Source: a virus
DNA: 64,000 bases
Direction: 5' to 3' (one strand)
Virus record (IMG/VR): IMGVR_UViG_3300005549_000002
Location: 1 to 64,000 of that record
The translations under genes and the position numbers were made by a program. Position 1 is the stretch's first letter. The number at the start of each line of letters is the position of its first letter. This document shows, one piece after another, positions 2,541-37,240 of the stretch. The notes beneath the pieces are model-generated. The model saw nothing but the letters and a program-made list of their open reading frames with translations, made no database searches and was not told the DNA's origin.

Positions 2541-3873
2541 TCTCGACTCGTTTCAGGAGCGCGCGTTTTGGGAATGCGTGCCCGGAACGATTGCGACCTA
2601 CCCGTGGGGTCGCGGCGCTGGCAAAACGTTTCTCGGCCGCGCGCTCATCCACTCGCAGGCGTTCACTCGCCAAGGAATTCACGTCGGGCTCCTCATGCCG
2701 ACGCTCAAGCAGGCGCGCCAGGTTTTCTGGCCGGGCCTGCTCGCCGACTTCGAAGGGCCGCTGCGCAAGCGCATCCACGGGCGACCCAATCGCACGCTGC
2801 TCGAGGCGACCTACGAGAACGGCTCGCGCCTCACCACCTGGGGAGCGGAGAACGCGGGCGGCATCCGCGGTCAGCGCTTCGATGTCATCATCGAGGACGA
2901 GACCGACGACATCGCGCCCGAGGTGGAGCAAGCCGTCGTCCGCCCCACCTTCAGCCGCTCGGGCGTCAACGCCCTGTGGGTGAAGTTCGGCACGCCGCGG
3001 CGCGGCCGCGCGGGCTCGCTCTTCGGAAGTTTCAACCGCGCGCAGCGAAAGCAATCCCGCTACACCGGCTTCGCGCTGCGCTCGTGCGAGTCGCCGCAGG
3101 TGGATCAGGCGTGGCTCGACGGCGTCAAAGACGACACGCCCCCCGACATTTACGCGCGCGAGTATGACGTCAATTTCGACGCCGCCGGCGGACGGGTCTA
3201 CGGCGACGTCTTCAACGAGAAGTTCCACGTCCGCATCCCGCCCGAGGAAACCCAGTGGACGGAGATCCTCATCGGCGCCGACCACGGCTGGGAAGATCCC
3301 GGCTGCCTGCTGCTCATCGGCGTGCTCGGCTCGGGCCGCGACGCCGTCGCGTGGGTGCTCGATGAAATCTACGAACGTCACCGCGCCGATAGCTGGTGGG
3401 TCGATGCCCTGAAACCGTGGACCGAATGGTACCCGCGGCACAAGTTCTACGGCGATCCGTCGCGCCCCGGGCTCGTCGAGGACTATCGCAAGCTCGCCCA
3501 CGCGCGCGTGCAGGAAGTCGACAACGCGATCGAGGACGGGCTTGCCGCCGTCGCCGATCGGTTCCTCATCCGCGGCCGCTACGATGACAAGGGCGAGCTG
3601 CTCGAGCGCTACGCCCGCCTCTACATCCACCCGCGCTGCGTCAACACGCTCACCGAGCTCGGCGCCACGGTCGCGCCGTTCGAAAACCACAAGCCGCTCG
3701 ACGGCATCGGGCCCTACATGCGCAAAAAGGACCCGCTGCTCGAGCTGCGCTACCTCGAAGAAATCGTCGACCGCAACAACCACGCAATGGACGCGCTCCG
3801 TTACCCCATCCTGAACCGGTTCGGGAAGCCCCTGAGCCAGCGCAACGCCGCGCCCTACGACGCCAGGAGCTGA
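2527..3873 (+). CDS. Terminase large subunit (packaging ATPase/nuclease)
   Basis: The protein has 448 residues. Walker A is GRGAGKT (28-34) and Walker B is VIIEDE (120-125). The C-terminal RNase H-like nuclease carries acidic residues in IGADHG (Asp252), YGDPSRP (Asp310) and NHAMDALRYP near residue 420. It is the motor that pumps DNA into the procapsid and cuts the concatemer. Length and motif order are normal for the family. It sits directly before the portal gene, the classic packaging order. Confidence 0.95.
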   Translation: MLRFNLDSFQERAFWECVPGTIATYPWGRGAGKTFLGRALIHSQAFTRQGIHVGLLMPTLKQARQVFWPGLLADFEGPLRKRIHGRPNRTLLEATYENGSRLTTWGAENAGGIRGQRFDVIIEDETDDIAPEVEQAVVRPTFSRSGVNALWVKFGTPRRGRAGSLFGSFNRAQRKQSRYTGFALRSCESPQVDQAWLDGVKDDTPPDIYAREYDVNFDAAGGRVYGDVFNEKFHVRIPPEETQWTEILIGADHGWEDPGCLLLIGVLGSGRDAVAWVLDEIYERHRADSWWVDALKPWTEWYPRHKFYGDPSRPGLVEDYRKLAHARVQEVDNAIEDGLAAVADRFLIRGRYDDKGELLERYARLYIHPRCVNTLTELGATVAPFENHKPLDGIGPYMRKKDPLLELRYLEEIVDRNNHAMDALRYPILNRFGKPLSQRNAAPYDARS

Positions 3874-3898
3874 CCTCGGCAGGCGCCACAAAACGCCC

Positions 3899-5731
3899 AT
3901 GGCCGAGACTTCCTACGACGCGACGATCAAGCCGCAGCACTTCGCGAAGCTCGAGCGCTACAAGACGCTCGGCAAGCTCCGCGGGTACTACGCCAGCACG
4001 CAATACGAGGGGCGGCCCGATTTTTTCACCGGCCAGCGAACGCCGCACGACAAGCCCGTGCCGCTGCGCGAGCGTAAGCCCTGCGTCATCTACCCGCTGC
4101 CGAAGAACGCCGTCCACCAGGTGGTCAGGTTCACGTTCGGCGAGAGCCGCTTTCCGACCATCGCCGTCGAGGCTGTCGAGAAAGCCGAAGACGCCGTCTT
4201 CGGGCTCACGCTCGCCGACGACGAGTCCGAGACGCTCGAAAAATACATCGCCAAGCTCATCGAGACGAGCGCCCTCAAGCCGACCATGCGGCGCCTCATG
4301 CGCCCCGGGCTCGCCGTCGGAACCAGCGTCGCCATCCTCGTCGTTCGCAACGGCTGCTTTCGGATCGATATCGCCAACGCCGAAGATTGCATGCCCACTT
4401 TCCAGGGCGGCGACGTCAACGGCGACGTCCTCGCGCTCACCTGGTGCTACCCGTACAACAAGACCGTTCCGAACCGGCAGACGGGCGTGCCCGAGGTGCA
4501 GCGCACCTGGTACCGGCAAGACATTACCGAGGCGGCGTACGTCCTCTACAAGGAAGTCCCCGTCGAAGCCGGCATCGAGCCCGTGTGGCTCGTCGAGAAA
4601 GTCATCCCGCATACCTTCGGGTTCTGCCCGGTGCGCTGGATCCGCAACCTGCACGAGGAGGACTCGGGCAGCATCGACGGGATGAGCCTGTACGATGACC
4701 TGTTCGATGAATTCGACGCGCTCAATTTCGCGCTCTCGCAGCGGCACCGCGGCATCCACCACTTCGGCACCCCGCAGCCTTGGGAAACCGGCGTCGACGA
4801 AGACGACGGACCCGCTCCGACGGGGCGTAAATCCATCGGCACGCCCGGGTTTCAGCCGGCCGGCGGCCCCTCGCCGCACGGCGTGATCCTCGGCGCCGAC
4901 GGCTCGCCCGCGCGCAAGGGCGGTCCCGATCAGGTTTGGAGTTACTCGGGCAAGGAGGTGAGGCTCGGCGTCCTCGAGACGACGGGAAAAGCCTTCGAGG
5001 TTTCCACCCTTCACGTCAACGACATCCGCGCCCGCGTGCTCGAGAGCATGTCGGTCGTGCTCGTGAACATCTCGGAAATCGCCGGGCGCACCCAGCAAGG
5101 CCAGATGTCGGCGAAGTTCCTCGAGCTCGCCTACGAGCCGCTCCTCGCCGTGGTCGACGAGATGCGCCACTGCTGGTGGCCGCTCGGCCTGCAGGCGATC
5201 CTATCGATGATGCTGCGCGCGACCGTCGCGCTCGGCGGCAAAGATCTCTTGATCCCGGGCGCCGAGGGCGCGGCCGCCATCCTGCAGAAATTTCTCACCC
5301 GAACGACGGCGGGCCCGATGTGGGTGCCGCCGACGATGACCCCCAACTGGGGCGACTACTTCGCGGCCGGCCCCGAAGAAATCAACCAGGCGATCACCGC
5401 GGCGAAGACCGCCAACGAAGCGCACCTCGTTCCCATGGAGGACGCGGTGAAATACGTGCTGCCCTACTTCGGGCGCGAGGACGTGCAGGAAGCGCTCGAC
5501 GAAATCGAAGACGACAAGGCCGAGGCGCAAGCGCTCGCGCAAGAAACGGCCATGAACGAAGCGGCCGCGCTCCATGCGGCGGGCGGCATCAAGCCGCCAG
5601 GCGGTGACGGTGCCCCGACCCCGACGAAGCCAACGCCAAGAGCACGACGAGGAGGAAAGTCGAAAAAGGATGCTGCTCGTCGAGGCGGCGGCGCTGGCGC
5701 TCCTTTTGGCAAGACGCCGAAAGGCGGTTGA
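3899..5731 (+). CDS. Portal protein
   Basis: The protein has 610 residues and the ATG lies 26 bp after the terminase stop. Size, place between terminase and MuF-type gene, and the internal layout (N-terminal head-binding region, long helical part near 330-480, Ala/Pro/Lys-rich tail) fit a portal that forms the dodecameric DNA channel. The tail (residues 560-610) is basic and glycine-rich and overlaps the start of the next gene. The assignment rests mainly on synteny and length. Confidence 0.85.
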   Translation: MAETSYDATIKPQHFAKLERYKTLGKLRGYYASTQYEGRPDFFTGQRTPHDKPVPLRERKPCVIYPLPKNAVHQVVRFTFGESRFPTIAVEAVEKAEDAVFGLTLADDESETLEKYIAKLIETSALKPTMRRLMRPGLAVGTSVAILVVRNGCFRIDIANAEDCMPTFQGGDVNGDVLALTWCYPYNKTVPNRQTGVPEVQRTWYRQDITEAAYVLYKEVPVEAGIEPVWLVEKVIPHTFGFCPVRWIRNLHEEDSGSIDGMSLYDDLFDEFDALNFALSQRHRGIHHFGTPQPWETGVDEDDGPAPTGRKSIGTPGFQPAGGPSPHGVILGADGSPARKGGPDQVWSYSGKEVRLGVLETTGKAFEVSTLHVNDIRARVLESMSVVLVNISEIAGRTQQGQMSAKFLELAYEPLLAVVDEMRHCWWPLGLQAILSMMLRATVALGGKDLLIPGAEGAAAILQKFLTRTTAGPMWVPPTMTPNWGDYFAAGPEEINQAITAAKTANEAHLVPMEDAVKYVLPYFGREDVQEALDEIEDDKAEAQALAQETAMNEAAALHAAGGIKPPGGDGAPTPTKPTPRARRGGKSKKDAARRGGGAGAPFGKTPKGG

Positions 5732-11907: not shown

Positions 11908-12375
11908 ATGAAGCTGCGTTTTTACGCGAACGCCGACGCGCTCGTCTACATCCCGGGCTCGCGGGCCGGCATCGGACAGCCGGCTCACTACATCGGCCGG
12001 CGCTACCAGGCGCCGAAGGACGGCAAGCCCGCGTCCTACCCCGCCACCGAGGAGCCGTACGAGGTCGAGCTCGATCGGACGAGGCTCGTCGACGAGCAGA
12101 TTTTCCTTCGCTACATGAAGCTCACCCGGCGCGGCGACATCTTGCCCGCCGATGAGGCGACGGCCAAGGAGTGCGGCGCCGAGTACCGGGCCGCCACGTT
12201 CAAGGACGACGAGTGGACCCAGCCACCGAAACCGCCCGAGGCGCCGCCCCCGACCCTCGTTGGCAGCGAGCCGAGCGTCGTCACCTCGGCGCCGGCGGAC
12301 GCCGCCTTCCCGCCCCCGCCCGCGACCTACAAGCCTCTCGTCGACAAACGCCACCCACGCAAGGAGTCTGAGTAA
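11908..12375 (+). CDS. Hypothetical protein before the tail sheath
   Basis: The protein has 155 residues. The N-terminal part has a compact fold (MKLRFYANADALVYIPGSR) and the last third is a Pro-rich acidic-to-basic tail. Small proteins at this position in Mu-like tails (gpK/gp38 region) are of unknown role. Its stop overlaps the sheath start by one base, so the two are probably translated together. Confidence 0.6.
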   Translation: MKLRFYANADALVYIPGSRAGIGQPAHYIGRRYQAPKDGKPASYPATEEPYEVELDRTRLVDEQIFLRYMKLTRRGDILPADEATAKECGAEYRAATFKDDEWTQPPKPPEAPPPTLVGSEPSVVTSAPADAAFPPPPATYKPLVDKRHPRKESE

Positions 12376-13928
12376 TGGGCGCTCCCGTCATTCCGATCAC
12401 CGGCATCGACGCGACTTGGCGCGTGCCGGGCGCCTACGCCGAAATCCTGTTCGCGCAAGGCCCGGCGACCGCGAGCGCGGGCGTTCGCGAAATCATCATC
12501 GTCATGCCGAAGCTTTCCGCGGGCCTGTGGACGGCGGCGACGAAGTACAAGGTCCAGAACGAGAAGGACGCCGAAGACGGCGCCGGCGCGGGCTCGCCGA
12601 TTCACCGCGCGGTTCGCATGATCCTACAGGCGAACAAGAACGCCAAGATCTGGGCCGTGCCGGTCTCCGAGACATCGGGCGGCAGCCCCATCGCCGCGAC
12701 CGCGGTCCTCACGATCGCGACCAACGCGACCGGGACCGGCACCCTCACCGTGACCATTTGCGGCGAGGAGTGCGCCTACACCTTCCTCAACACCAACACG
12801 CCGACGATCATCGGCGACGGCATCCGCGATGCTATCAACGCCAAGACGTGGCTGCCCGTCGTGGCCGTCAACGTGACCGGCACCGTCACCCTGACGGCGA
12901 AGCTGAAAGGGATCTCGCAAGGGACCGCCACGCTCGGCGTCATCCGCGTGCGGGCGACCATCACGGCCGGCGTCGGCACCACTGCGGTCTTCGGCGGCGC
13001 GTTTCTCGGGAGCGGCGCGACCGGCGTCGAGGGATCGACGACCGAGGCTGCCAACACCCTGACGGCGTTGAACACCATCGTCGCCGTCAACAAATACTAC
13101 CTGGTCTCGAGCGCGAACGACGCGACGACGCTCGGGCACTTCAAGACCCATTGCGCGACCAAAGCCGAGCCCCGGCAAGGGATCTTCTCGGTCACCATCG
13201 CTGGCTACACCGGCTCGGCGGCGACGGCGCAGACGCTCGCGACGGGCAAAAACTACGAGCGGCTCGCCCTCTATTGCCAGCCGAACAGCGAGCACGACTC
13301 CGCCGAGATCGCGGGCAACGTGGCGGCGATTCGGCAAAAACGCGAGCAGACCGACAGCTCGTACAACCTCGCCGGCTACAGCGAGCCGGATTGGCTCATC
13401 AAGCAGGCGTTCGCCGACGCCGATTGGCCCGACGCCGACGATCTCAACGACATGATCAACGACGGCGTCAGCCCCATCGCCTCGAAAGAGGGCGGGTCCT
13501 ACCTCGTCATGTCGGTCAACACACGTTCGAAGATTTCGACGGGGACCATCGACGATTTTCGCGCGTGCGAGACGCACCGGGTTTCCGCCGCCGACGAATT
13601 CGTGACCCAGATGGTGAACCAGGCGCGGCTCGATCACCAGGGCAAGAAGCTCGAGAACGACCAGTTTCTGGCGGACGGCACCGTCAACCCGAGCCAGCCG
13701 CGCAAGCGCGGTGTCATCCGGCCCTCGACGCTGCGCAAGCCCATCTGCCTGCAGCTCGACGAATTCGAGGCCGCCGGCAAGCTGCAGAACGTGCAGAAGT
13801 CGAAGGACTCGCTTCGCACCGTGAAATCGCCTGCGAACGCTGCGCGCGTGGAATGCGGGCTCGATCTCTACGTCATCGATCACGCCCACCAGTTCACGTT
13901 CCGGGTCGCCGAAAACAGCACCGGCTGA
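12375..13928 (+). CDS. Tail sheath protein (Mu gpL-like)
   Basis: The protein has 517 residues, close to the usual Mu-type sheath length of about 490-500. An N-terminal arm (WRVPGAYAEILFAQGPATASAG) is followed by an inserted beta-rich domain (about 110-215), then the core with the C-terminal segment DHAHQFTFRVAENSTG, which resembles Mu sheath ends. It is the contractile outer layer of the tail and defines the phage as a myovirus. Confidence 0.88.
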   Translation: MGAPVIPITGIDATWRVPGAYAEILFAQGPATASAGVREIIIVMPKLSAGLWTAATKYKVQNEKDAEDGAGAGSPIHRAVRMILQANKNAKIWAVPVSETSGGSPIAATAVLTIATNATGTGTLTVTICGEECAYTFLNTNTPTIIGDGIRDAINAKTWLPVVAVNVTGTVTLTAKLKGISQGTATLGVIRVRATITAGVGTTAVFGGAFLGSGATGVEGSTTEAANTLTALNTIVAVNKYYLVSSANDATTLGHFKTHCATKAEPRQGIFSVTIAGYTGSAATAQTLATGKNYERLALYCQPNSEHDSAEIAGNVAAIRQKREQTDSSYNLAGYSEPDWLIKQAFADADWPDADDLNDMINDGVSPIASKEGGSYLVMSVNTRSKISTGTIDDFRACETHRVSAADEFVTQMVNQARLDHQGKKLENDQFLADGTVNPSQPRKRGVIRPSTLRKPICLQLDEFEAAGKLQNVQKSKDSLRTVKSPANAARVECGLDLYVIDHAHQFTFRVAENSTG

Positions 13929-13950: not shown

Positions 13951-14328
13951 ATGGGAACGTTCCAGGATTTTGCACAAATTGGTCTCATGTATGGCGGCAA
14001 TGAGCTGAAGATGCTCACGTCCGTCAAGATGACGACCGACAGCGGGCAGCAGCCCGTGGACCTTCTGAACGAGGGCCTTTCCGGGTTCACGCCCGGCTCG
14101 GGCCGCGTGACCGTCGACATCGGCTACGCGGTGCCGATCGGCGGCCCCGAGGCGCCCTACCAGCAGGATTGCGCCGCCGGCAGTTTCGTGACGCTGCAGG
14201 TCTTCGAGGGCGCGCTCTCGTACATCGGCAAGGGCAAGATCATCAACAACGAGGTCGGGCAATCGACGAACAACCCGATGGAAGGCTCGTGCCAGTGGAT
14301 GGGACCGCTCGCGCCGATCGAGATCTGA
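13951..14328 (+). CDS. Tail tube protein (Mu gpM-like)
   Basis: The protein has 125 residues and directly follows the sheath, with AGAAAGG upstream. The text MLTSVKMTTDSGQQPVD near the start and GSCQWMGPLAPIE at the end match the size and layout of Mu-type tube proteins. These stack as hexamers to form the inner DNA channel. It is the last gene before a terminator-like element. Confidence 0.8.
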   Translation: MGTFQDFAQIGLMYGGNELKMLTSVKMTTDSGQQPVDLLNEGLSGFTPGSGRVTVDIGYAVPIGGPEAPYQQDCAAGSFVTLQVFEGALSYIGKGKIINNEVGQSTNNPMEGSCQWMGPLAPIEI

Positions 14329-14495: not shown

Positions 14496-15266
14496 ATGGC
14501 AGGACCGCCCGTCGACATCGAGCAGAGCGAACTCTTCCGGAAACTATGCGAGCCCGGCCCGAGCGAAGTGATCGATTTCCCGCGCCGCAAGGCCAACGGC
14601 GAACCGATCGGCAGCGTTCGCATCCAGGTGCTCACGCAAGAGGAGCACGACCGGGCGCGCACCTTCGCCCACCGCGGGATGAAACTGCAGGGGTTCGACA
14701 AGGACGATCTCAAGGACGCCACCATCCAGGAGATCACCGGCGACGCGATCGCGCGCGAGCTCTTGGCCATGGCGTGCCTCACCGTCACGGGCCCCGAGGA
14801 CGACACGGGGGCGCCCCTCCTCGGCCGCGTGTTTCGCAACGCCGACGATCTGAAAAAACTCCGGCCCGACGAGATCGCGTTTCTCTTCTCGGCCTACCTC
14901 CTGGTGCAATCGAAATACGGGCCGTTTGAAAAGATCATCGGCTCGCCCGAGGATCTCAACGCCTGGATCAAGCGTCTCAAGGAGGGCGGCTCGGAGTTCC
15001 CTTTACTTCGGTTGCAATTGCCTCAATTGGCCCAACTAGCCTACTCGTTGGCGGAAAGAGTCTCTTTGCTCTACGGCATCCTGGAATCCCAGCGACCGAA
15101 CTTGCCGCCTATTTTGGTGTCGCTCCTCGACGACTTCTCTATGGGCACTGGCTCGTTTGGCGAGCCTGCTGCGAGCTCCACCGCGACCGATGGGGAAAGC
15201 TCAGCTGACGAGGGGCCCACCGTTGGGCAGGTGACGACGGTCGCCGAGCAGCTGCGGGGCGCCTGA
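14496..15266 (+). CDS. Tail assembly chaperone, zero-frame product
   Basis: The protein has 256 residues from the ATG at 14496, with CGAGGAAA upstream. A longer frame from 14364 would cross the terminator and is rejected. Position between tube and tape-measure genes is diagnostic of tail assembly chaperones, which coat the tape measure during tail polymerisation. At 14999-15005 the in-frame heptamer C CCT TTA is a classical -1 slippery site. After it, codon use turns unusual (TTA, CTT, TTG, CAA, CTA) while the -1 frame is also open, which indicates dual coding. Confidence 0.8.
   Translation: MAGPPVDIEQSELFRKLCEPGPSEVIDFPRRKANGEPIGSVRIQVLTQEEHDRARTFAHRGMKLQGFDKDDLKDATIQEITGDAIARELLAMACLTVTGPEDDTGAPLLGRVFRNADDLKKLRPDEIAFLFSAYLLVQSKYGPFEKIIGSPEDLNAWIKRLKEGGSEFPLLRLQLPQLAQLAYSLAERVSLLYGILESQRPNLPPILVSLLDDFSMGTGSFGEPAASSTATDGESSADEGPTVGQVTTVAEQLRGA
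14999..15208 (+). other. Programmed -1 frameshift site and frameshifted chaperone tail
   Basis: Slippery heptamer CCCTTTA lies at 14999-15005, in the phase required for a -1 slip. A hairpin follows at 15011-15035: two CAATTG arms around CCT, with GTTG/CAAC outside. After slipping, the -1 frame stays open for 67 codons to TGA at 15206-15208. The extension contains FGVAPRRLLYGHW and VWRACCELHRDRW. The product would be about 237 residues, against 256 without slipping. The longer chaperone form made by frameshifting is conserved across tailed phages (lambda gpG/gpGT). Confidence 0.75.
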
Positions 15267-15267
15267 G

Positions 15268-17580
15268 GTGGCGCTGCTCCAATACGACATCAAGGTTGTC
15301 GGCAAGGAATCGGTCGATCGCGCGCTCGCCGGCATCGAGGCGCGCCTGCGCCAGCACAACGCGACGGTCGGCCGCATCAGCGGCGACGTGGGCGGCGCGC
15401 GGCGCGCGGGCACGGCCCCGGCGACGGCGCAGCGGCGTTTCCAATCCTCCGCCGCGCAGCACTTCAAGGAGGTCGACCGCGATCAGAAAAAGGCGATCGC
15501 GGATGAGGCGAAGCTCAAGACCAAGGGGCTGCGCGACGAGCACCGCGTCCGTAACCAAATCAACTCCCTCAACATCCGGGAGCTGAAAAAAGAAGAGCGG
15601 CTGCGCGCCTCGATGGCGACCCGCGACGAGCGGATCATCAGGCGCCAGGCGCGCGCGCGAAGCGAGTTTGCCCAGGCGACGATCGGACACGGCGTCGGCC
15701 GCGCGGCGGGAACCATCAAGGCCGTCGGCGCGGCGGGCGCGGGCCTGCTCGGCGTGGGCGGCGCGGGCCTCGCGGCAACGGCCGTCGCCGGCGCGACGCG
15801 GCTCGACGACAAGGTCCGGCGCCTCATCATCTCCGGCCGGCAGGGCGGCGAGATTTCCAAGTACCACCCCGAGGAGCTCTCCAAGCAATTTCAGCGCACC
15901 GGCATCGAGACGGGCCTTGACCCCGAGGCGGTCGCGGGCGGCGTGCAGGCGTTCGTCACCAAGACGGGCGACATCGAAACGGCGATCAAGAACCACAAGA
16001 CCTTCGCCAAGGTCGCGCAGGCAACGGGCGCCGCCGTGGAGGATGTCGCCTCGGCCGCCGCGGACATGTCCGAGAAGATGGGCATCAAGTCCGTCGAGCA
16101 AATGCAAGAGGCCTTGGCGACGCTCACCCTCCAGGGGAAAAAGGGCGCGTTCGAGCTGAAGGACGCCGCCCAGCAGCTTCCCGAAATCCTCGCCGACGCG
16201 GCGAGCTTCGGCATCAAGGGCAACGCCGGCCTGACCCAGCTCGGCGGGTTTCTGCAGATCGCCCGGCAGGCGACGGGCAGCGGCGCGGAGACGGCGACGG
16301 CGACGTCCGCGGCATTCCGGCAGCTCAAGGCAAAGTCCGCCGACATCCAATCGGGCGGGGCTTTCAGCGGGCGCGCGGTGCAGGTCTTCGAGGGCGGCGA
16401 TCCGACCAAGCCCCTGCGCGACTTCAACGAGATCCTCGGCGACGTGATTTCCGCCTCGCGCGGCAACCTCGTCCAGCTGCAGGAGGTCTTCGACGTGCGC
16501 GGCATCCGCGCCGTCAATCCGCTCATCACGACCTTTCGCAACGCGAGCGAGGCGGCGGGCGGCGGCGACAAGGGCGCGAAGGCGGGGCGCGCCGCCGTGA
16601 TCGGGCAGCTGAAGGAGGCGGCGACCGTCAAGGGGGGCTTTGGCGAGATCGAGAAGGACAGCGCCGCGGCCATGCAGTCTTTCGCGGTGCAGATGTCCAT
16701 CGTCGAGATGCGTTTCAAGCAGGCGATGGCCGGCGAGCTCTTGCCGCAGCTCATCAAACTCGGCCCCGAGATCGGCAAGCTCGTGCCGTACGTCGGGCGC
16801 GCAACGAAGATGTTCGTCGATCTGGTGTCCTTTCTGCTCGCGCACCCTTTCCAGGCGGTCGCGATCATCGTCGCGACGCAGCTCGCCGCCGATTTTGCCA
16901 AGGCGCGGCTCGGCAACCTCGTCGGCGGCCTCATTGGCAAGGCGTTCATGGGGGTCAGGACGCCGGCGGCGGGCGCCGTCGGCGGCGGCGTCGGCGGTGG
17001 TGGTGGCGGGGGCGCAGCTCCGACGGGCGGGTTTCTCCGTGGTAACCCCGGGCTCGCCGGCGCGGCCAGCGCCGCGGGGGCGGGCCTCGCGCTCGGGCTC
17101 ACCATCGGATCGGCCATCATCACGGCGAACGTGGTCAATTTCGAGGCCGGCGAGGCGCAGATGAAGTCGAGCGGCGAGCTGCTCAACAAGATCCGCGAGA
17201 TGAATTCGCCCGAGCAGGCGAAGGAAGCGCGCAAACTCGTCGAGGAGCAGCGCGTCGTGGTCGGCGACACGAAAAAGACGGGCGTCTTCGAATCGATCGC
17301 CAGCGCCGTCATGCCCGACAGCTGGGCGCATAGCATGGCGCAAACGGTCGGAACTGCGGCGAGCGACACCGAGGTCAAGACCCAGGAGTCGTTCCTCGCC
17401 GAGATGGAAATGCAGCTGCGTAAACTCAATGCGCTGGAGGATATCGCCAAACGGCTCAGCACCGCCGGCGTGAGCCAGGAAGCCGCCGCCGTGGAACTGA
17501 GCGCCGCCGCTAAGAAGCTCGGCCTCGCTAGCCCGAACCGCGGCAACACACCGAGCCCCGTAGGCCCAGCCAAAACATGA
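15268..17580 (+). CDS. Tail tape measure protein
   Basis: The protein has 770 residues with a GTG start one base after the chaperone stop. The N-terminal half is helical and basic, glycine/alanine hydrophobic stretches lie near 150-180 and 555-625 (GGGVGGGGGGG), and the C-terminus is helical. Tape measures set tail length at roughly 1.5 angstrom per residue, suggesting a tail near 110 nm. That number is a family rule, not a measurement. Confidence 0.85.
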   Translation: MALLQYDIKVVGKESVDRALAGIEARLRQHNATVGRISGDVGGARRAGTAPATAQRRFQSSAAQHFKEVDRDQKKAIADEAKLKTKGLRDEHRVRNQINSLNIRELKKEERLRASMATRDERIIRRQARARSEFAQATIGHGVGRAAGTIKAVGAAGAGLLGVGGAGLAATAVAGATRLDDKVRRLIISGRQGGEISKYHPEELSKQFQRTGIETGLDPEAVAGGVQAFVTKTGDIETAIKNHKTFAKVAQATGAAVEDVASAAADMSEKMGIKSVEQMQEALATLTLQGKKGAFELKDAAQQLPEILADAASFGIKGNAGLTQLGGFLQIARQATGSGAETATATSAAFRQLKAKSADIQSGGAFSGRAVQVFEGGDPTKPLRDFNEILGDVISASRGNLVQLQEVFDVRGIRAVNPLITTFRNASEAAGGGDKGAKAGRAAVIGQLKEAATVKGGFGEIEKDSAAAMQSFAVQMSIVEMRFKQAMAGELLPQLIKLGPEIGKLVPYVGRATKMFVDLVSFLLAHPFQAVAIIVATQLAADFAKARLGNLVGGLIGKAFMGVRTPAAGAVGGGVGGGGGGGAAPTGGFLRGNPGLAGAASAAGAGLALGLTIGSAIITANVVNFEAGEAQMKSSGELLNKIREMNSPEQAKEARKLVEEQRVVVGDTKKTGVFESIASAVMPDSWAHSMAQTVGTAASDTEVKTQESFLAEMEMQLRKLNALEDIAKRLSTAGVSQEAAAVELSAAAKKLGLASPNRGNTPSPVGPAKT

Positions 17581-19874: not shown

Positions 19875-20542
19875 GCGATGCCGTCGTCGTCGTCCTCGGA
19901 GCCTCGCACGTCACGGCCGAAGGAGTGCCGCTCATCCAGGCGGTCAACCCTATCGGCAATAGCAACGACGACGTCGAGCCGTTCGGCGAAGTCGCCTCCT
20001 ACCAGGTGCTCGGCGTCACGTCGCTCCCGTGGCCGACGACCAAGGAGGGGCACGCCGAGGGGCTCGTCATCGTCAACGTGGGCGGGCATGACGCCGTCCT
20101 CGTCGGCGCGCGCGATCTTCGCACGGCGAAAATCGTCGGCAAGATGGGGCCCGGTGACACCGTCCTGCACAGCACGGGGCCCGAGCAGGCCGCGCAGGTG
20201 CAGCTCAAGGAAAAAAAGCGGCAGGTCGTGCTCGCCACGAAGGACTCGTCGGGCGAGACCATGATGGTCATCCTCGACGGCAAGAACGACGCCGTCCAGA
20301 TCGTCGGTGCGGGGCATGCGTTCAAGATGTCGCGCAAGGACGGCATCTCGCTCGTCGACAGCTCCGGCAAAGCCGGCATCCAGATCAAGGACGGCGTGGT
20401 CAGCATCTTCGGCGCCCTCGTGTTCGGGGGCCGCACCCCCGATCCCGCGTTCAAGTTCATGCTCGGCCCGGCGACGGGTTCCCCCGGCGCGGCTGCTTCG
20501 ACGCCGATGATCGCAGCGCCCGGGATCTCGCTCGGGCGATGA
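19871..20542 (+). CDS. Baseplate spike protein (Mu gp45-like)
   Basis: The protein has 223 residues from the ATG at 19871, which overlaps the hub stop by ATGA. A longer frame starting at 19388 is shadow. An OB-like N-terminal part (VASYQVLGVTSLPWP, GLVIVNVGGHDAVLVGARD) is followed by a repetitive beta region (GISLVDSSGKAGIQIKDGV), as in membrane-piercing Mu gp45/gpV spikes that form a trimeric beta-helix needle. Confidence 0.8.
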   Translation: MSDAVVVVLGASHVTAEGVPLIQAVNPIGNSNDDVEPFGEVASYQVLGVTSLPWPTTKEGHAEGLVIVNVGGHDAVLVGARDLRTAKIVGKMGPGDTVLHSTGPEQAAQVQLKEKKRQVVLATKDSSGETMMVILDGKNDAVQIVGAGHAFKMSRKDGISLVDSSGKAGIQIKDGVVSIFGALVFGGRTPDPAFKFMLGPATGSPGAAASTPMIAAPGISLGR

Positions 20543-20856
20543 GCTGCAACTTCAAGCTGCCGACCGTCGCGCTGCCGCTGCCGTCGCTCGCGCTCCCGAA
20601 AATACCGGCGCTCCCGTCCTTCGACCTGCCCGACGTCGACTTCCCGATCAACTTGAAGCTGCCGAAGATCGCGCTGCCGCTGCCGTCGCTGTCCTTGCCG
20701 AAAATACCGGCGCTGCCCTCCTTCGCGCTGCCCGATCTCGGCGAGCTCGGCATCAAGCTGCCGAAACTCCCGACGGTCGCGCTGCCCATCCCCTCGTTCG
20801 GCCTGCCGAAGATCCCGAGCCTTCCGACCTTCAAGCTCGAGTGCCCGTTTGACTAG
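20539..20856 (+). CDS. Leu-Pro repeat protein, possible spike tip
   Basis: The protein has 105 residues and overlaps the spike gene by ATGA. It consists of three repeats of about 33 residues built on LPLPSLALPKIPALPSF, with Pro every three or four residues and a Cys near each end (Cys3 and the Cys of LECPFD). No catalytic residues are seen. Its place directly after the spike suggests a cap or tip component; this is inference. Its stop meets the stop of the opposing lipoprotein gene. Confidence 0.65.
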   Translation: MSCNFKLPTVALPLPSLALPKIPALPSFDLPDVDFPINLKLPKIALPLPSLSLPKIPALPSFALPDLGELGIKLPKLPTVALPIPSFGLPKIPSLPTFKLECPFD

Positions 20857-21665
20857 GGCGTCACCGTCCACGTGCAGGGCGGGGGCAAGCACCCGACGCG
20901 GCCGAGCGCGTCGTTCGCCGTCACGCTGATCTCGTTGACGCCAAGCGTGAAAATGATTGGGTCGGTTCCGCCCGCCCCGTGAAACGCGATCTCGTGGCCG
21001 GTCGTCGCCGTGCTCGGCACGCCCATGTAGGTTCTTACCATCGCGCCGTTCTTCACGGTCATCACGCCGTCGACGAAGCGGTCCTGAAAGGGACTCGCGA
21101 TGGGGCTCCGAAGTCGGATCTCGCTGAATTGGTAGCTACCGCCCGGCGCGCTCGTCGTCGCGCCGCAGAGAGGGTGGGGGTACGTCGAGATGGGCACCCC
21201 CTCGAGCTCGAACGCGCCGCAAGGCGGCGGGCCCGTGTCGATCGCCCCGTCGACGGCGCCGTCGACGCCCGCATCGGGAGCTCGGTCCGGTTGGCTGTCG
21301 GGCGCCCCGCCCTCGCTGTCGCCGCTGTCGGGCGCGCGGTCGAATCCGCCCACATCTGTCCCCGCTTCGGGCCCTCCTTCCGCGCCGCTGTCGATGGCGT
21401 CCAGGCCGCCCTCGCCGCCCTCAGGCGACCTCGCGTCCGGCATGGCGCCCGCTTCCACCCCAGCCTCTTGGGCGGCCTCGCTGCCGGCGTCGAGCGAAGC
21501 GTTGCCCCCTTCTGCGGCGCTCGCGCCCGCGGCCCCCCCGCCGCTGTCGGGCGCTCCGTCCGGCGGCTCGGGCGGCGGCGCCGTAAACCCCGTCCCCTCG
21601 CTGCCAAAGCACGCTGCCCCCGCGGCGGCGAGGAGCACGAGGCCCACCCAATTCATCGTTTTCAT
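20853..21665 (-). CDS. Secreted lipoprotein with Asp/Ala/Gly-rich region (moron)
   Basis: The protein has 270 residues from the ATG at 21665. The signal peptide MKTMNWVGLVLLAAAGAAC places the lipidated cysteine at residue 19, and AGGGA lies 8 nt upstream of the start. Upstream in-frame ATGs at 21692 and 21701 are less likely because the latter falls inside the promoter repeats. Residues 20-150 are low-complexity (DAGVDGAVDGAIDTG), a style common in Polyangia lipoproteins; the C-terminal part forms a beta-rich domain. It stands alone on the opposite strand inside the baseplate operon. Surface change or superinfection exclusion is possible. Confidence 0.8.
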   Translation of the reverse strand: MKTMNWVGLVLLAAAGAACFGSEGTGFTAPPPEPPDGAPDSGGGAAGASAAEGGNASLDAGSEAAQEAGVEAGAMPDARSPEGGEGGLDAIDSGAEGGPEAGTDVGGFDRAPDSGDSEGGAPDSQPDRAPDAGVDGAVDGAIDTGPPPCGAFELEGVPISTYPHPLCGATTSAPGGSYQFSEIRLRSPIASPFQDRFVDGVMTVKNGAMVRTYMGVPSTATTGHEIAFHGAGGTDPIIFTLGVNEISVTANDALGRVGCLPPPCTWTVTP

Positions 21666-21701
21666 TCGGAGCGTCCCTATCGCTGTGTTCATGAGCGTCA
21701 T

Positions 21702-27557: not shown

Positions 27558-30500
27558 ATGAGTGGGATCCTAGCCAATAGCTCGACCGCCACGATGGTCG
27601 ATGCCGACACGACGCCCGACAATGCGCGGAGCGGCTACGTCACCGCCGACCAGATCACGCTCGGCGTCACGGGCACGCCGGTATCGACCGTGTGGTCGAT
27701 GGCGAAGCCCTCGGCGGAGACCGCGGCTTGCGAGCTGTCGTCGTCGACGGACCCGAACCCGACCTTCACGGCGACGGTCGACGGCTACTTCACCGTCGTT
27801 TGCGTCGTCGACGGGACGACGACCTACGTCCTTCGCATGGCGGTCGCGCGCGTCGGCGTGGTGAGCACGCTCACGGCGGTGCGCATGCTGCCGATCTTGA
27901 ATGCGAGCGTGCCGACGCCGGCGACGGGCCGGACGCTCTTCTCGTCGTCCGATCTCAACGATCTCGCCCAGAAGCTTCCCGACGGGATCACCTATGCGCT
28001 CGCGGGCGGCGCGGGCGGCGGCGGGGGCGGCAGCGGCAGCGGCGCTTACGCCACGATCGCAGCGCTCAAGGCGATCAGCTCGACGCTCCTCGCGACCCTG
28101 GACGACGGCGTCTCGCTTGCGTACGTGACCCCGCTCCGCGCCTGGTTTGTTTGGCAGGCCGCGAGCACGGTCGCCGACGACACGACCGATTTCCTCAGCG
28201 TTGCGGTCACGGTGAACGGCGCCGCGGCGGGGCGCTGGCGCCGGCTCGACTGGGCGCACCCGGCGTGGCGCGAGCAAGCCGCCTGGTTCGTGGATACGGC
28301 GGGCTCGAACGCGAACGACGGGGCAACCGCGCTCACGCCCGTGAAGACGGACGCGGAGATCCAGCGGCGCTGGGGCGCGGGGGTGCGGGCGCGGCTCACG
28401 GTGCCGGTCACGATCACCTACGCGCAGGCTCCCGTCGGGCAGACCAACTACCTTTTCGAGCTCGGCTCGGGCGCTGCGCTCAGCATCGTCGGGACGCCGA
28501 CCATCACCAAGCCCGGCACGATCCTGACGGCAGTGCAGGCGCAGGTGCGGACCGCGGGGGCCGAGCTTGCGTGGGCCATCACGGCGACTGGGCTCGACGC
28601 GACGGATGTCGGCAAGCTCGCCTTCATTACGGCGAGCGGCACCGGCGCCAATGTTGGCGCCTACGCGATGGTGCTGAAGGACGAGACGGGCGGCAAGCTC
28701 CGCGTGTCGCCTTTCGGGACCGTTGACGCGACGACCGCGGCGTTCACCCAGCGCACGCCGCAGGTGGGCGACACGATCGAGATCCGCACGCCGACGACGC
28801 TCAGCGTGGGGTCGATCGATTGCCATGGTGCAGCCGCCGGCGTAACGTCGGCCGGCCTTAACCGGGTGCTGTTCGATTCGGTTACCCTTGATTCTGCCAG
28901 CACGGCCGACGGCGGGATCTATGGTCGCAAGGCGAGCGTCTATTACGCCCGGTCGATACTCAACGGGATCACCTGGATGGGTGAGGGCACCGGGGGGAAA
29001 CCGCCGCACCTGATGCGCGGTGGTGGGATCGGGACGGCGCAGCTGTACGTGCGCAGTGGCGGCGCCAACAGCATTACTTGTCCAGGCTGCCTTGGCACGG
29101 TGTCCGTGGGCGCGAACGGGCACGCCACGATCACGGCCGACACCTATTTCCAGAACAGCGGACTCACGGTTGCGCGGGGAGCCTTCGTCAACTCCCAGGG
29201 ACTGGCGTTCTTCGACAGGAGCACGTCGGACGCCTCGTTGGCAGTGACCCCCGGCGGCTTTTGCCAGCAGAGCGGGGCTGTGCCCGATTGGGGCGCGGCG
29301 AACGCCGGCCACGGGTTGAATGTCCAGTCGGGCTCCAGCTACGTGTACGTGACGAAGCCGACCATCAACAGTGGTCTCGGCGCCGGGCGCGAAGCGAAGG
29401 TCGGCGGTACCGACAAGCTCTACTCAGCAGTTCCGTACATCGAGCCCGCGAACAACGCCGTCTTGGTCCTCAACGACGGCACCGACGGGCCCGCGGCGTA
29501 TTACCAGACCTACGCGACCATCGCGCTCTTGAAGGCGATCACGGCGACGCGGCTCGGTAACCTCCAGGACGGGCAGCGCGTCTACGTCGCGACGCTCCGC
29601 GCGTGGTTTGCCTGGCACGCGGCGAGCGCCGTTGCGGACGACACCGTCGCTTTCCTTTCCGTTGCTGTCACCGCGAACGGGGCAAGCGCGGGCCGGTTCG
29701 TGCGGCTCGGCTGGGCGCACCCGTCGTGGCGGGCGCAGACGGCGTGGTTTGTCAGCACCGCGGGGAGCAACGAGAACGACGGGGCGACGGTGGGCGCCCC
29801 CGTGCTGAGCGACGAGGAGATCGCGCGGCGGTGGGGCGCGGGCATGGTGCTGACGGTGCCGGTCACCGTCACCTATGCCCAGAGCCCGACGACGACGACG
29901 AACCTCGACGTCGGCTACGCGGACGGCGGCTCGCTCTCGCTCGTCGGGACGCCGACGGTGACGAAGGCGGGTACGGTCATCTCGGCAGTGCAGGCGCAGG
30001 TGCGCACGGCCGGATCGGAACTCGGCTGGGCCATCACGGGGACTGGTCTCGGTGCAACCGAGGTCGGCAAGATCGCGGTCATCACGGCGGGCACCGCGAA
30101 CAACATCGGGGCGTACGCCGGCATCCTGAAGGACGAAACCGGCGGCAAGGTCCGCATTTCGCCGTTTGGTAAAGCAACCGCCGACGGTCTCTTTTCTCAA
30201 GTGACGCCGGTCGCGGGCGACACCGTCGAGATCCGCGAGAATACGACCGTTCTGAAGGTCGCTTTCATCAACGTGCAGGGGCTCTCGCAGCTCGCGGCCG
30301 TCGCGAGTCCCGTGCAGAATGTCGTTGTCTTCGACTCCCTTCTCCTCGACGGGAGCGTCGGCGGTAGCCTCAATGGCGGAATCGTTCGCAACGAAGGAGC
30401 TCAGATCTCCTACGTGAGGTGCACGCTGCAAGACCTCATTCTTGCTAGCGCGCCGTCCACATTCTCCAAGCTGCAGTCGGTTTGCGGTGGGCTGATCACC

Positions 30501-33500
30501 GCCGGCGCCGGGGGAGTCGACCTTCGCGGCAATATCATCATGCGTCAGGTCGGTGTGCTCAACACCATCATCTCTGAATCGGCACCTACTGGAAATGCGA
30601 GCTTTCAGGCCGACAATTACTTCCAGAATTCACAGCTCAGCATGAACGCCGGCTGTCCGGCGGTTACCCAGGGCATCGCTTTCTTCGATCGATCCTCGAG
30701 CGACGCCACCTTCACCTTGGGAGCCTCGTCGAACGGCGGAAGCGCCTACGTGCGCCAGACGGGCGCCGTTGCCGACTGGGGCACCGCTAACGCCGGGCAC
30801 GGTCTCGTCGTGCGAAGCGCGAGCTCGTACGTCTACGCGACGAAGCCGACGATCAACTCGGGGCTCGGCGCGGGTCGCGAAGCACTTATCGGCGGCACCG
30901 ACAAGCTGCTGAGCGCCGTCCCGTACATCGAGCCGGGCTGCAACGCCATGGTGACGTCGGCCGATAACATCGACGGCCCGGCCGTCTTCTATTCGGCTTA
31001 CGCCACCATCGCGCTCTTGAAGGCGATCTCGGCCAACCGCCTCGCCGGCCTTGTCAACGGGCAGCGGGTGTTTGTGACCACGCTCCGCTCGTGGTTCGCG
31101 TGGGACGCGACCAGTGCGGTGGCAGACGACACGACGGATTTCCTGTCGGTGGCCGTGACCGCGAACGGCGCCGCGGCGGGGCGTTTCGTCCGGGTCCTTT
31201 CCGACACGCATCCGTCATGGGTCGCGCAGACCGCCTGGTTTGTCAGCACGGCGGGCAACAACGAGAACGACGGGCTGACCTTGGGCACGGCCGTCAAAAC
31301 CGACGCGGAGATCCAGCGGCGGTGGGCTGGCCCTGGCAAGCGCGGGCGCATCGCCGTCACGGTCACGATCACCTACGCGCAATCGCCGGCCGGCGAGACC
31401 AACCTAATATTTGAAATCATCACGGGCGGGCAGCTGCGGCTTGTCGGCACGCCGACCGTCACCAAGGCCGGCACCGTTCTGACGGCGGTGCAGACACAGG
31501 TCCGAACGGCGGGCGCCGAGCTCGGATGGGCGATCACGGGCACCGGGCTCGGTGCGACCGAAGTCGGCAAGCTCGTCGCTATCACGGCGAGCGGCACCGG
31601 CGCGAATGTCGGCGCAACGGCGATGATTCTTAAGGACGAGACGGGCGGCAAGCTCCGGATCTCTCCGTTCGGCACGCTGGCCGAGGCGACGACCGTGTAC
31701 ACCAACATCACCCCGCAGGTAGGTGACACGATCGAAATCCGCGACGTGGCGGCAACGACGCTTACCCTTGGGAAGATCGAAGCTTACTCGGCAGCGAGCG
31801 TCCAGATCCCGGCGGCCTTTGTCTGCGACTCGCTGATGCTCGACGGGGGTGCGAGCGCCGTTGGCAGCGTCTACGCCGCCGGTCCTCTTGTCATCTATAC
31901 CCGTTGCATTCTCAGCAAAATGATTTTGAACGGGCACAGCGCCCCTTCGACAACGCCGCATTCGGTGCGCGGCGGCGGCATCATTGGGGCAGTGTTCAGC
32001 ATCCGGAATTTGGCTGCGTTAACGTCAGTCGGAATTCTAGCGCCGCTTACGATCCGCCAGGGCGGCAACGTGTTTTTACAGCAAGACTGCTACTTCCAAA
32101 ACGCTGGTGTGACCGTGGCCCTTGGCGGTATGGCGCAAGGGACCGGCAACGCTTTCTTCGACCGCTCGACCGCAAGTTCCAGCCTCTTCGTCCAAGAGGG
32201 CGGGCGGTACGTGGCGACGGGTGCGGTGCCCGACTGGGGCACGGCCAACGCTGGCTACGGCGTCGTCGTGCAAAGCAACGCCAGCTACGGGTACGCGACG
32301 AAGCCGACGATCAACAGCGGCCTCGGCGTCGGCCGCGAGGCGATTATCGGGGGCACCGACAAGCTCTACAGCGCGGTTCCTTACGTCGAGCCGGCGAACA
32401 ACGCCGCGTTGGTGCTCACCAACGGCACCGACGGCCCCGCGGTCTTCTATTCGGCCTATGCGAACGTCGCCGCGCTCAAGGCGATCTCGTCGAACCGCCT
32501 GGCGGGTCTGCAGGACGGCCAGCGCGTCTACGTCGCGACCCTCAAGTCCTGGTTCGCTTGGCACGCTGCGAGTGCCGTCGCCGATGACACGACGGATTTC
32601 CTCTCTGTCGCGGTGACGGCCAACGGCGCGAGCGCCGGGCGCTTCGTTCGGCTCGCCGACGCGCATCCCGCCTGGCTCGCCCAGACGGCGTGGTTCGTCA
32701 GTACCGCGGGCTCGAACGAGAACGATGGCGCGACGGTGGGCGCTCCGGTCCTGACGGACGCCGAGATCCAGCGGCGGTGGGGTGCGGGCGCGCGGCTTTC
32801 CGTTCCGGTGACGGTCACGTATGCACAATCGCCAACCGGTATCACCAATTACAATGTCGAGATTGTCACCAATGCCTCGCTCACCTTGGTCGGCACGGCG
32901 ACGGTGACGAAGGCGGGCACCGTCATCTCGGCGGTGCAGGCGCAGGTGCGCACGGCGGGCTCTGAGCTCGGGTGGGCGATCACGGCCACGGGGCTCGACG
33001 CGACCGATGTCGGGAAGATCGCCGTCATCACGGCTGGCACAGCCGGAAACATCGGCGCATATGCGGCTGTCCTGAAGGACGAGACGGGCGGCAAGGTGCG
33101 CGTTTCCCCGTTCGGTAAGTTCACCGCGAACACATCGCCGTTCACGCAAGTGACGCCGGTCGCGGGCGACACCATCGATATTCGTGACCCTACGACGCTA
33201 AAGGTGGGGACGATCGAAGTCAGGTCGTTGACGAACGACAACTTGACGGGAACCGTCGTCAACAACTATCTGATGTTTGATTCGATCCGCGAAAGCGGCG
33301 ATGCCAACGATGGCAATGGCGGCGTTTGCGCGAACCGCGTCACCGTCTTTCATTGCGTGCGTGGCGCCATCGATGCCATTTCGCTCAGCGGCAGCACCGG
33401 CAGCCTCTCGTCGCACAAGTTATGTGGTGGACTCGTGCACAACGCGAGTCCTTCATTCGGCGTCGTGTTCCGCGGTGGCACCGTCGGCACCGTGCACCAG

Positions 33501-33899
33501 AGTGGTTGCCTTACGTCGATTACAGCATCGGCTGGATCGCTATGCATCTTGCAGGCTGATACTTATTTCCAAAACTGTGGTCTCACGATCAGCAGAGGAG
33601 GCGTCGCCAACACACAGGGCGTCGCGTTTTTCGATCGTAGCAGTTCGAACAGTTCCCTTTTGGTTTCCGCGTTGGGCATGTGTCAGCAAACCGGCGCAGT
33701 GCCCGATTGGGGGGCCGCGAATGCCGGCCATGGTTTGACGATTCAATCCGCAGGCTCCTGCGTTTATACGACCAAGCCCACGGTCAACTCGGGGCTCGGC
33801 GCCGGGCGCGAGGCGCAGGTCGGCGGGACCGACAAACTCTACTCGGTTGTCCCCTACGTCGAAGCCACCAACAACGCAGCGCTCGTCCTACTCGCGTAA
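27558..33899 (+). CDS. Giant four-unit receptor-binding/tail fibre protein
   Basis: The protein has 2,113 residues. An N-terminal head (1-150) ends in a glycine linker (GGAGGGGGGSGSG). Four units of about 485 residues follow. Each opens YATIALLKAI and contains WFVSTAGSNENDG, a motif seen at the start of right-handed beta-helix domains. Each ends with VPDWGAANAGHGL, TKPTINSGLGAGREA and GGTDKLYSAVPY. Unit ends are strongly conserved and cores diverge. No autocleavage motif is seen. The protein probably binds or degrades host surface glycans; that is inference. Confidence 0.8.
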   Translation: MSGILANSSTATMVDADTTPDNARSGYVTADQITLGVTGTPVSTVWSMAKPSAETAACELSSSTDPNPTFTATVDGYFTVVCVVDGTTTYVLRMAVARVGVVSTLTAVRMLPILNASVPTPATGRTLFSSSDLNDLAQKLPDGITYALAGGAGGGGGGSGSGAYATIAALKAISSTLLATLDDGVSLAYVTPLRAWFVWQAASTVADDTTDFLSVAVTVNGAAAGRWRRLDWAHPAWREQAAWFVDTAGSNANDGATALTPVKTDAEIQRRWGAGVRARLTVPVTITYAQAPVGQTNYLFELGSGAALSIVGTPTITKPGTILTAVQAQVRTAGAELAWAITATGLDATDVGKLAFITASGTGANVGAYAMVLKDETGGKLRVSPFGTVDATTAAFTQRTPQVGDTIEIRTPTTLSVGSIDCHGAAAGVTSAGLNRVLFDSVTLDSASTADGGIYGRKASVYYARSILNGITWMGEGTGGKPPHLMRGGGIGTAQLYVRSGGANSITCPGCLGTVSVGANGHATITADTYFQNSGLTVARGAFVNSQGLAFFDRSTSDASLAVTPGGFCQQSGAVPDWGAANAGHGLNVQSGSSYVYVTKPTINSGLGAGREAKVGGTDKLYSAVPYIEPANNAVLVLNDGTDGPAAYYQTYATIALLKAITATRLGNLQDGQRVYVATLRAWFAWHAASAVADDTVAFLSVAVTANGASAGRFVRLGWAHPSWRAQTAWFVSTAGSNENDGATVGAPVLSDEEIARRWGAGMVLTVPVTVTYAQSPTTTTNLDVGYADGGSLSLVGTPTVTKAGTVISAVQAQVRTAGSELGWAITGTGLGATEVGKIAVITAGTANNIGAYAGILKDETGGKVRISPFGKATADGLFSQVTPVAGDTVEIRENTTVLKVAFINVQGLSQLAAVASPVQNVVVFDSLLLDGSVGGSLNGGIVRNEGAQISYVRCTLQDLILASAPSTFSKLQSVCGGLITAGAGGVDLRGNIIMRQVGVLNTIISESAPTGNASFQADNYFQNSQLSMNAGCPAVTQGIAFFDRSSSDATFTLGASSNGGSAYVRQTGAVADWGTANAGHGLVVRSASSYVYATKPTINSGLGAGREALIGGTDKLLSAVPYIEPGCNAMVTSADNIDGPAVFYSAYATIALLKAISANRLAGLVNGQRVFVTTLRSWFAWDATSAVADDTTDFLSVAVTANGAAAGRFVRVLSDTHPSWVAQTAWFVSTAGNNENDGLTLGTAVKTDAEIQRRWAGPGKRGRIAVTVTITYAQSPAGETNLIFEIITGGQLRLVGTPTVTKAGTVLTAVQTQVRTAGAELGWAITGTGLGATEVGKLVAITASGTGANVGATAMILKDETGGKLRISPFGTLAEATTVYTNITPQVGDTIEIRDVAATTLTLGKIEAYSAASVQIPAAFVCDSLMLDGGASAVGSVYAAGPLVIYTRCILSKMILNGHSAPSTTPHSVRGGGIIGAVFSIRNLAALTSVGILAPLTIRQGGNVFLQQDCYFQNAGVTVALGGMAQGTGNAFFDRSTASSSLFVQEGGRYVATGAVPDWGTANAGYGVVVQSNASYGYATKPTINSGLGVGREAIIGGTDKLYSAVPYVEPANNAALVLTNGTDGPAVFYSAYANVAALKAISSNRLAGLQDGQRVYVATLKSWFAWHAASAVADDTTDFLSVAVTANGASAGRFVRLADAHPAWLAQTAWFVSTAGSNENDGATVGAPVLTDAEIQRRWGAGARLSVPVTVTYAQSPTGITNYNVEIVTNASLTLVGTATVTKAGTVISAVQAQVRTAGSELGWAITATGLDATDVGKIAVITAGTAGNIGAYAAVLKDETGGKVRVSPFGKFTANTSPFTQVTPVAGDTIDIRDPTTLKVGTIEVRSLTNDNLTGTVVNNYLMFDSIRESGDANDGNGGVCANRVTVFHCVRGAIDAISLSGSTGSLSSHKLCGGLVHNASPSFGVVFRGGTVGTVHQSGCLTSITASAGSLCILQADTYFQNCGLTISRGGVANTQGVAFFDRSSSNSSLLVSALGMCQQTGAVPDWGAANAGHGLTIQSAGSCVYTTKPTVNSGLGAGREAQVGGTDKLYSVVPYVEATNNAALVLLA
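28045..33899 (+). repeat. Four tandem 1.44-1.49 kb repeats inside the giant fibre gene
   Basis: Units begin near 28045, 29511, 30996 and 32455. Flanking parts of each unit are similar at DNA level, for example the segment coding GTDKLYSAVPY at each unit end. The central 450-550 bp of each unit differs and has lower GC, most clearly at 33190-33760 in unit four. The pattern suggests duplication followed by core replacement or diversification. Confidence 0.8.
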
Positions 33900-37000: not shown

Positions 37001-37240
37001 AACGTCACCGTCACACTGCCCACGCCGACGGTGGGCCGGCGCATCACGATCAAGCGTACGTCCGGCACCAATGATGTGATCGTCGATCCCGGCGCGAACC
37101 TGATCGACGGCTCGGCCTTCAACAGAAACCTCGTGACGGACCCGATCGATGGGGAAATCGAGCCCTACCTCGCGCTCGAGGCGGCGACGGTATCGTACTG
37201 GGCGATCGTCGCGCACTGGTCGGTGCTGATGGGCGAATAG
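34100..37240 (+). CDS. Long tail fibre with about seven shaft repeats
   Basis: The protein has 1,046 residues. Residues 1-110 form Ig-like beta sequence (TVDGVANPGEHIVAYGATVTL). From about 270 to 880, a module of 85-90 residues recurs around TATGLRIGDATxxTxTLDVVGRAKIGV, then a THGALWLG-type line and a GNGSTDxRLNAP line. The C-terminal part (from about 940) has NVTVTLPTPTVGRRITIKRTSG and ends in VSYWAIVAHWSVLMGE. Repeats of this type build trimeric fibre shafts. It is a second adsorption organelle next to the giant fibre. Confidence 0.75.
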   Translation: MPISAHFTVDGVANPGEHIVAYGATVTLALTSITAADVISWQVLVASEPAYTIPTITPGGTPPGSTASFTFPADPGDDVGRSFRVRAVVSNGQETDFEDALIGAANINGIVPLCPGEQFERHATHGWGPVINALLAGGAGTPVSLGGDVVGTTAANTVVKVNGASVTTAGAAAVGDVLQLTAPNTLGYAKVAAASLAAGAAILGQALIFNGTAWAAGNDFAARNLATTGTLAAGATTVTGSLTAGVNTAKAVLNSYSATPTTHGALWLGAIVASSTNQALAGDGTSTSINGITRVQVAASSVVKAVFTASGLRIGDATDPTTTLDVLGRATIGVSTAKVILDSHPDAPTSNASVWLAQASPSGTNYVLNGNASTTILNAPTQVRFAVAAAAVGNFTATGLRVGDATTATATLDVVGSAKVGASYQATIASLPGATTTHAGMFFATPSATNYAFLGNAADSWVNAPTGKLYLQIGAAATANLTSTGLRIGDNTTATEKLDVVGRAVIGVGAGKATLDSLAGSTATHGALWLGVAAASGTNYTIFGNGSTDLRLNAPASGMGFDFTAGNSQLLARLTATGLRVGDITSATEKLDVVGRAKIGVGAGKCVIDSDISFPASDAVIWLGPITPSATNGALRGDGTTYTMLNGASNLRFRTANTGRGYWDATGLKIGAESAATECLEVVGRAKIGVDTAKVFIDSLIGAPASWGGIWMGLTPSGSNYMLASNGSETRLNAPSTLVRIGVGLNFKVICNSVGTQVALNGSGAVTDQLEVVGTASASVDVIANSLANGKARLAGLVGSTTTHGALYLGNITPSATNATLFGNGTTDTRLSVPGAGAIDIYRNNAGIARFTDTGLKIGAASNAAAALDVGTSGQVLAGFVTCGATPAASGALRLTNNTGLYARNQANSADVRIVDLDTNNKTNVGSATTKQSFSGAHEVVVRNVTASFTVDTTTMDQTICVGTGLGNVTVTLPTPTVGRRITIKRTSGTNDVIVDPGANLIDGSAFNRNLVTDPIDGEIEPYLALEAATVSYWAIVAHWSVLMGE

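Follow-up and report, generated by a model that had tools for sequence, protein, structure and literature searches.

Organization of the tail module

The analyzed stretch of DNA (the window) comprises 64,000 nt of a 72,612-base IMG/VR virus record. It contains a tail module in which the genes for sheath, tube, chaperone and tape measure are followed by hub and baseplate genes. The features relevant to the chaperone locus are:

12375..13928 (+), tail sheath gene (PHROG 165, E=2e-51)
13951..14328 (+), probable tail tube gene (judged by its location, size and conservation among related phages)
14496..15266 (+), tail assembly chaperone gene read in the zero frame (256 aa; flanked by tube and tape measure)
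14979..14985 (+), AAGGAGG resembling a Shine-Dalgarno sequence, ahead of the slip, candidate frameshift stimulator
14999..15005 (+), slippery heptamer C CCT TTA (X XXY YYZ), at the same alignment column in relatives
15005..15208 (+), extension of 67 codons and a stop in the -1 frame, putative T-like domain of the frameshift product
15006..15205 (+), stretch read as dual-coding in the zero and -1 frames (codon-position mismatch pattern, shuffling tests)
15209..15263 (+), zero-frame-only tail (recurring T-x-E-x-A-x-x-x-A pattern in relatives; predicted C-terminal helix)
15268..17580 (+), tape measure protein gene (PHROG 794, E=2e-25; Pfam PhageMin_Tail, E=8e-13)

The probable tube gene gave no family match in Pfam or PHROG. 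The order of sheath, tube, heptamer-containing gene and tape measure agrees with the original prediction, which had placed the gene with the heptamer between tube and tape measure; this is the position that is characteristic of chaperones of the G/GT type. The likeliest start of the zero-frame ORF is the ATG at 14496, and the tape measure gene begins 1 nt past its stop codon (15264-15266). The N-terminus of the encoded protein could be aligned to 27 relatives.

Several other ORFs in this region were observed. Within the tail module, the ORF at 20853-21701 on the minus strand runs opposite to all its neighbours and resembles an Asp/Ala/Gly-rich lipoprotein having a signal peptide with Cys; Pfam gave no match, the phage collection contained no relative, and the ORF is possibly a moron. 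Between the hub and baseplate genes, 20539-20856 (+) encodes a 105-aa protein of repeated LPKxALPxPSxxLPKIPxLPSF units, and two very long ORFs of 2113 and 1046 aa (27558-33899 and 34100-37240, both +) are located after the baseplate genes; Pfam matches were absent for all three. In one relative, L081, an ORF between sheath and tube (3349-4185) has Cys-rich and HNH-like motifs and looks like a homing endonuclease insertion.

Slip site and reading frames

The C CCT TTA heptamer (14999-15005) was found in the correct phase of the ORF 14496-15266, as had been proposed. Past the slip, no stop interrupts the zero frame for 86 codons or the -1 frame for 67, so that both previously given lengths were reproduced. 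The stop codon of the -1 frame (15206-15208) is located 58 nt ahead of that of the zero frame and the -1 ORF is therefore nested within the zero frame, an arrangement that was implied by the numbers of the original prediction but not remarked on there. The zero frame had also been described as turning AT-richer at the slip. Accordingly, GC3 of this frame drops from about 0.84 before the slip to 0.64-0.72 across the overlap. For comparison, 17 genes or ORFs in the window hold 24 in-phase XXXYYYZ sites, and after 18 of these the -1 frame stays open for 60 codons or more. Since open -1 frames after heptamers are common here, the observation in this single genome is not significant by itself; the window alone gives no better than chance, and the case therefore rests on relatives.

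Conservation of the slip site in related phages

The first relatives obtained, MW202476.1 (Manatee Spring) and three IMG/VR contigs, all contained the heptamer and both open frames, with an identity of 48-60% in the -1 extension. An alignment search with N-terminal patterns, supplemented by two genes from a search with the -1 extension, yielded a first set of 28 distinct genes, including two pairs that are nearly identical. Because nearly all members were found by N-terminal motifs, the retrieval did not select for the heptamer. The heptamer occurred at one alignment column in 28/28 genes and was CCCTTTA with the exception of one CCCTTTC. TTA represents 1.4% of the Leu codons upstream, yet it is nearly invariant at the slip. 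The -1 ORF comprised 65-83 codons, and the zero frame extended for a further 84-130 codons, or 66 in a contig that is truncated.

To avoid bias from the chaperone itself, a second set of relatives was fetched via the neighbouring sheath gene. This yielded 59 complete chaperone genes, 52 of them distinct and 31 new. All had an in-phase heptamer followed by 70-130 zero-frame codons, within which a -1 ORF of 61-83 codons was nested. The slip in this set was chosen as a heptamer meeting length limits, so that a few sites in the more distant genes may be assigned wrongly. The resulting distribution among the 52 genes was CCCTTTA (30), CCCTTTT (9), TTTTTTA (9), CCCTTTC (2), TTTTTTG (1) and TTTTTTT (1). 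A profile built from the first-set -1 extensions only matched 30 of the 31 new -1 frames with E-values of 1e-33 to 3e-5, and nothing below E=1 was obtained for any zero or +1 frame. The single -1 frame missed by the profile was that of L116 (E=0.23). L116 and L117 are intermediate, with T TTT TTA as slip and a zero frame that outlasts the -1 ORF by only 6 codons.

The in-phase X XXY YYZ site typical of G/GT-type genes was hence kept in 28/28 and 52/52 distinct genes, none of which lacked the heptamer or a -1 frame open for at least 61 codons. In both sets together, the nested layout is conserved in about 58 distinct phage genes. When 84,980 prokaryote genomes were searched directly, neither a single protein nor an alignment as query brought up any relatives. 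The one annotated GenBank relative, MW202476, lists the zero frame only, an example of how the -1 product is missed by gene callers.

Evidence for coding in both frames

At zero-frame codon positions 1, 2 and 3, the mismatch among relatives was.42/.34/.61 upstream of the slip,.37/.48/.47 in the overlap and.54/.48/.67 downstream. The excess of third-position mismatches was thus present upstream, evened out in the overlap, and back downstream. Shuffling nulls, which do not follow a tree, were used for either frame. Against the zero-only null, the observed -1 similarity per site was 2.14 compared to an expected 0.08-0.23, exceeding the null by >25 SD, and 0 stops occurred in the -1 frame where 31-37 were expected (25 sequences, 60 codons). 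Against the -1-only null, the observed zero-frame similarity was 1.56 compared to an expected -0.06 to 0.21, with 0 zero-frame stops where 21-24 were expected (25 sequences, 60 codons). In an upstream control block, which gives the effect of relatedness alone, the -1 similarity was 0.54 and 27 stops occurred in 21 sequences. When the overlap was divided into quarters, both frames were above their nulls throughout. In the last 15 of the 60 overlap codons, however, the zero-frame similarity was 0.97 versus a null of 0.5, an excess no larger than relatedness could give, and strict dual coding is therefore firmest for about the first 45 codons. Over the overlap, the -1 frame was more conserved than the zero frame. 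The codon usage of the two frames was equally intermediate (p=0.29) and gave no answer as to their relative age.

Judged by these comparisons, both frames are constrained across the overlap, and coding in a single frame is rejected by the shuffling tests. The proposal that about 200 bp code in two frames thus stood up to the analysis of related phages, in which each frame was free of stops and more similar than its null, and did so most firmly for the first 45 or so codons. In terms of sequence, the gene also has the shared N-terminus and conserved alternative C-terminus of the G/GT type, the -1 ORF being both conserved and constrained.

It is conceivable that past the slip only the -1 frame is of importance and that the zero-frame tail is passive read-through carrying ribosomes to the tape-measure start. 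The stronger conservation of the -1 frame and the weak zero-frame constraint in the last quarter of the overlap would fit such a role, as would the position of the zero-frame stop, which in 25 of 28 loci is found between -8 and +13 nt from the start of a downstream ORF and would suit translational coupling. A passive tail is nevertheless improbable, as it would leave the zero-frame similarity near 0 rather than at 1.56, should have accumulated the 21-24 expected stops, and accounts neither for the constraint on the first 45 overlap codons in both frames nor for the motif that recurs in the zero-frame tail past the -1 stop. The frequency of long -1 ORFs after in-phase heptamers in the window (18/24) might suggest that only the zero frame codes and that the -1 ORF is a chance open frame in GC-rich DNA. 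Given the absence of -1 stops where more than 30 were expected, a similarity >25 SD over the null, the recovery of 30/31 new relatives by the -1 profile, and zero-frame third positions that become conserved in the overlap, we regard a chance origin as scarcely credible.

Candidate signals for frameshifting

A -1-frame start codon near the slip was absent in the window and many relatives, and none was common to the relatives; slippage is therefore the simplest route to the -1 product. In some relatives the -1 frame has a GTG, TTG or ATG 36 nt before the slip, which could point to a separate gene with its own internal start. This is most unlikely, since the window and several relatives lack a start codon near the slip, in several the -1 frame stays open for just 2-6 codons upstream, and the invariance of the rare-codon heptamer would be left unexplained.

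A Shine-Dalgarno-like stretch occurred upstream of the heptamer in 26/26 sequences, usually as GGAGG ending about 13 nt before it. Its mean pairing energy was -10.6 compared to -8.65 +/- 0.45 kcal/mol by synonymous resampling (60 resamplings). Upstream sequences of this kind are described as known stimulators of bacterial -1 frameshifting, e.g. in dnaX (PMC5600365), and the motif appears to be a better candidate stimulator than the hairpin with CAATTG arms that had been proposed about 5 nt downstream. The 80 nt downstream of the heptamer fold no better than shuffled sequences (z = -0.13), and the arms (15015-15020 and 15024-15029, separated by a 3-nt loop) are located 9 nt past the heptamer. 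As a conserved element the hairpin was rejected, as no conserved pair was detected in a 25-sequence alignment. A highly conserved stretch of DNA, TTGCCTCAATTGG (or TGGCATCAATTGG), was observed soon after the heptamer at 15010-15029 and in relatives. Dual coding may explain this conservation, and the stretch may also have a role in frameshifting.

Structure predictions and family searches

Structures were predicted by AlphaFold, with one GenBank row left out. The 67-residue -1 extension was predicted with a pLDDT of 94 to consist of a beta hairpin and two main helices, and a fold search with it matched no known fold. The zero-frame product (pLDDT 77) had low confidence at residues 218-242 and a C-terminal helix at residues 243-255. 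Its best PDB match by Foldseek was the HK97 chaperone 2ob9, a weak hit (E=1.0; TM 0.56 on target), and its BFVD matches include several tail assembly chaperones, again weak (E 0.009-0.5). Pfam and PHROG gave no family for either chaperone product, and no profile match to the P2 GpE' family PF06528 was obtained in the whole record. Tail assembly chaperones diverge strongly in sequence, and a family match is supportive only.

Comparison with known systems

Programmed -1 frameshifting in tail chaperones is textbook knowledge. In phage lambda, low-level G-T frameshifting results in a gpG:gpGT ratio of about 30:1, with G binding the tape measure and T the tail tube (PMC5009743), and frameshifting of an HK97-type chaperone was measured at 6-7% (PMC3711429). 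The gene described here shares with lambda gpG/gpGT its location between tube and tape measure, an X XXY YYZ site, and the -1 slippage, predicted here, that gives a second C-terminus. In lambda, however, the zero frame stops 5 codons past the slip while T runs for 144 codons, whereas in the window the zero frame continues for 86 codons with the -1 ORF nested inside. P2 gpE/gpE+E' has the contractile tail and the -1 shift (predicted here) in common with our phage, and a similar spaced pattern can be seen by eye in its extension (AVIFHWPPSEL...LITWREKA), but the zero frame stops 6 codons past the slip and E' goes beyond the zero stop. The frameshift ORF goes beyond the zero frame also in HK97, where the latter stops at most 17 codons past the slip. 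The module of Mu has a similar order of sheath, tube, chaperone (gp41), tape measure and then hub genes; the shift there is -2 and occurs near the gene end, the overlap is at most 12 codons, and the frameshift ORF again passes the zero stop. The chaperone of Pseudomonas phage Adele has a conserved -1 frameshift and an alignment without -1 stops, but its GTTTTT site is located near the 3' end of TAC-N and the extension is downstream and non-nested (PMC12846349). The usual G/GT layout, which is not strictly defining, has the slip near the zero-frame end and the frameshift ORF running past the zero stop; the present gene departs from it. Among the open-licence papers searched, no nested chaperone frameshift was found.

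A sister IMG/VR group (L123, L124-L159), whose sheath is 31% identical, has a chaperone in the same place. Its -1 extension appeared homologous in a single comparison (hhalign probability 87%, E=4e-6, 29 columns). In contrast to the nested genes, the slip is A AAA AAA/G, the zero frame extends just 27-28 codons further, and the -1 ORF ends 77-98 nt past the zero stop in 24/24 distinct loci, which is the usual layout.

Proposed mechanism and evolution

Based on these comparisons, the gene very likely encodes the G/GT-type chaperone of a phage with a contractile tail, made with programmed -1 frameshifting into an ORF that is nested in the zero frame. The heptamer in 28/28 genes, the lack of stops in either frame and the constraint on both are in accordance with the programmed -1 slippage in a tail assembly chaperone that was originally predicted; slippage in the cell and its rate are inferred. 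Most ribosomes would stay in the zero frame as far as the stop next to the start of the tape measure gene, resulting in a 256-aa protein. Some would slip by -1 at C CCT TTA, probably aided by the GGAGG about 13 nt upstream, and produce a protein of about 237 aa. The first 170 residues would be common to both products, followed in the latter by a different 67-residue end. By analogy to gpG/gpGT of lambda, binding of the tape measure protein would fall to the shared part, and recruitment of tube subunits to the rarer -1 end. The spacing between the zero-frame stop and the following start would be expected if translating the zero frame to its end helps to start the tape measure.

The nested form looks derived, because the frameshift ORF passes the zero stop in lambda, P2, HK97, Mu and the sister group. 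As the -1 end and the frameshift end of the sister group are homologous, the zero frame of this clade probably grew across the former T region until it reached the start of the tape measure. In the simplest history, an old -1 (T-like) domain would later have been covered by the extending zero frame. We lean slightly towards the broader view that a large phage clade overprinted its frameshift domain, with a functional zero-frame extension of ~85-130 residues reaching the tape-measure start, two conserved chaperone ends from ~200 bp, and translational coupling to the tape measure.

In the cases checked, the two frames of chaperone genes overlap briefly, whereas here a whole domain appears to be dual-coded. 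This overlap is unusually long, and dual coding at domain length is kept by about 58 distinct phage genes. The nested, long dual-coding region, as read from sequence, is a new form of the known programmed -1 frameshift chaperone. Since the unshifted protein would be the longer one here, the rule derived from lambda, that the rarer of the two products is also the longer, would not hold in general. As the sister group keeps the usual layout, the transition from briefly overlapping to fully nested frames is directly accessible to study.
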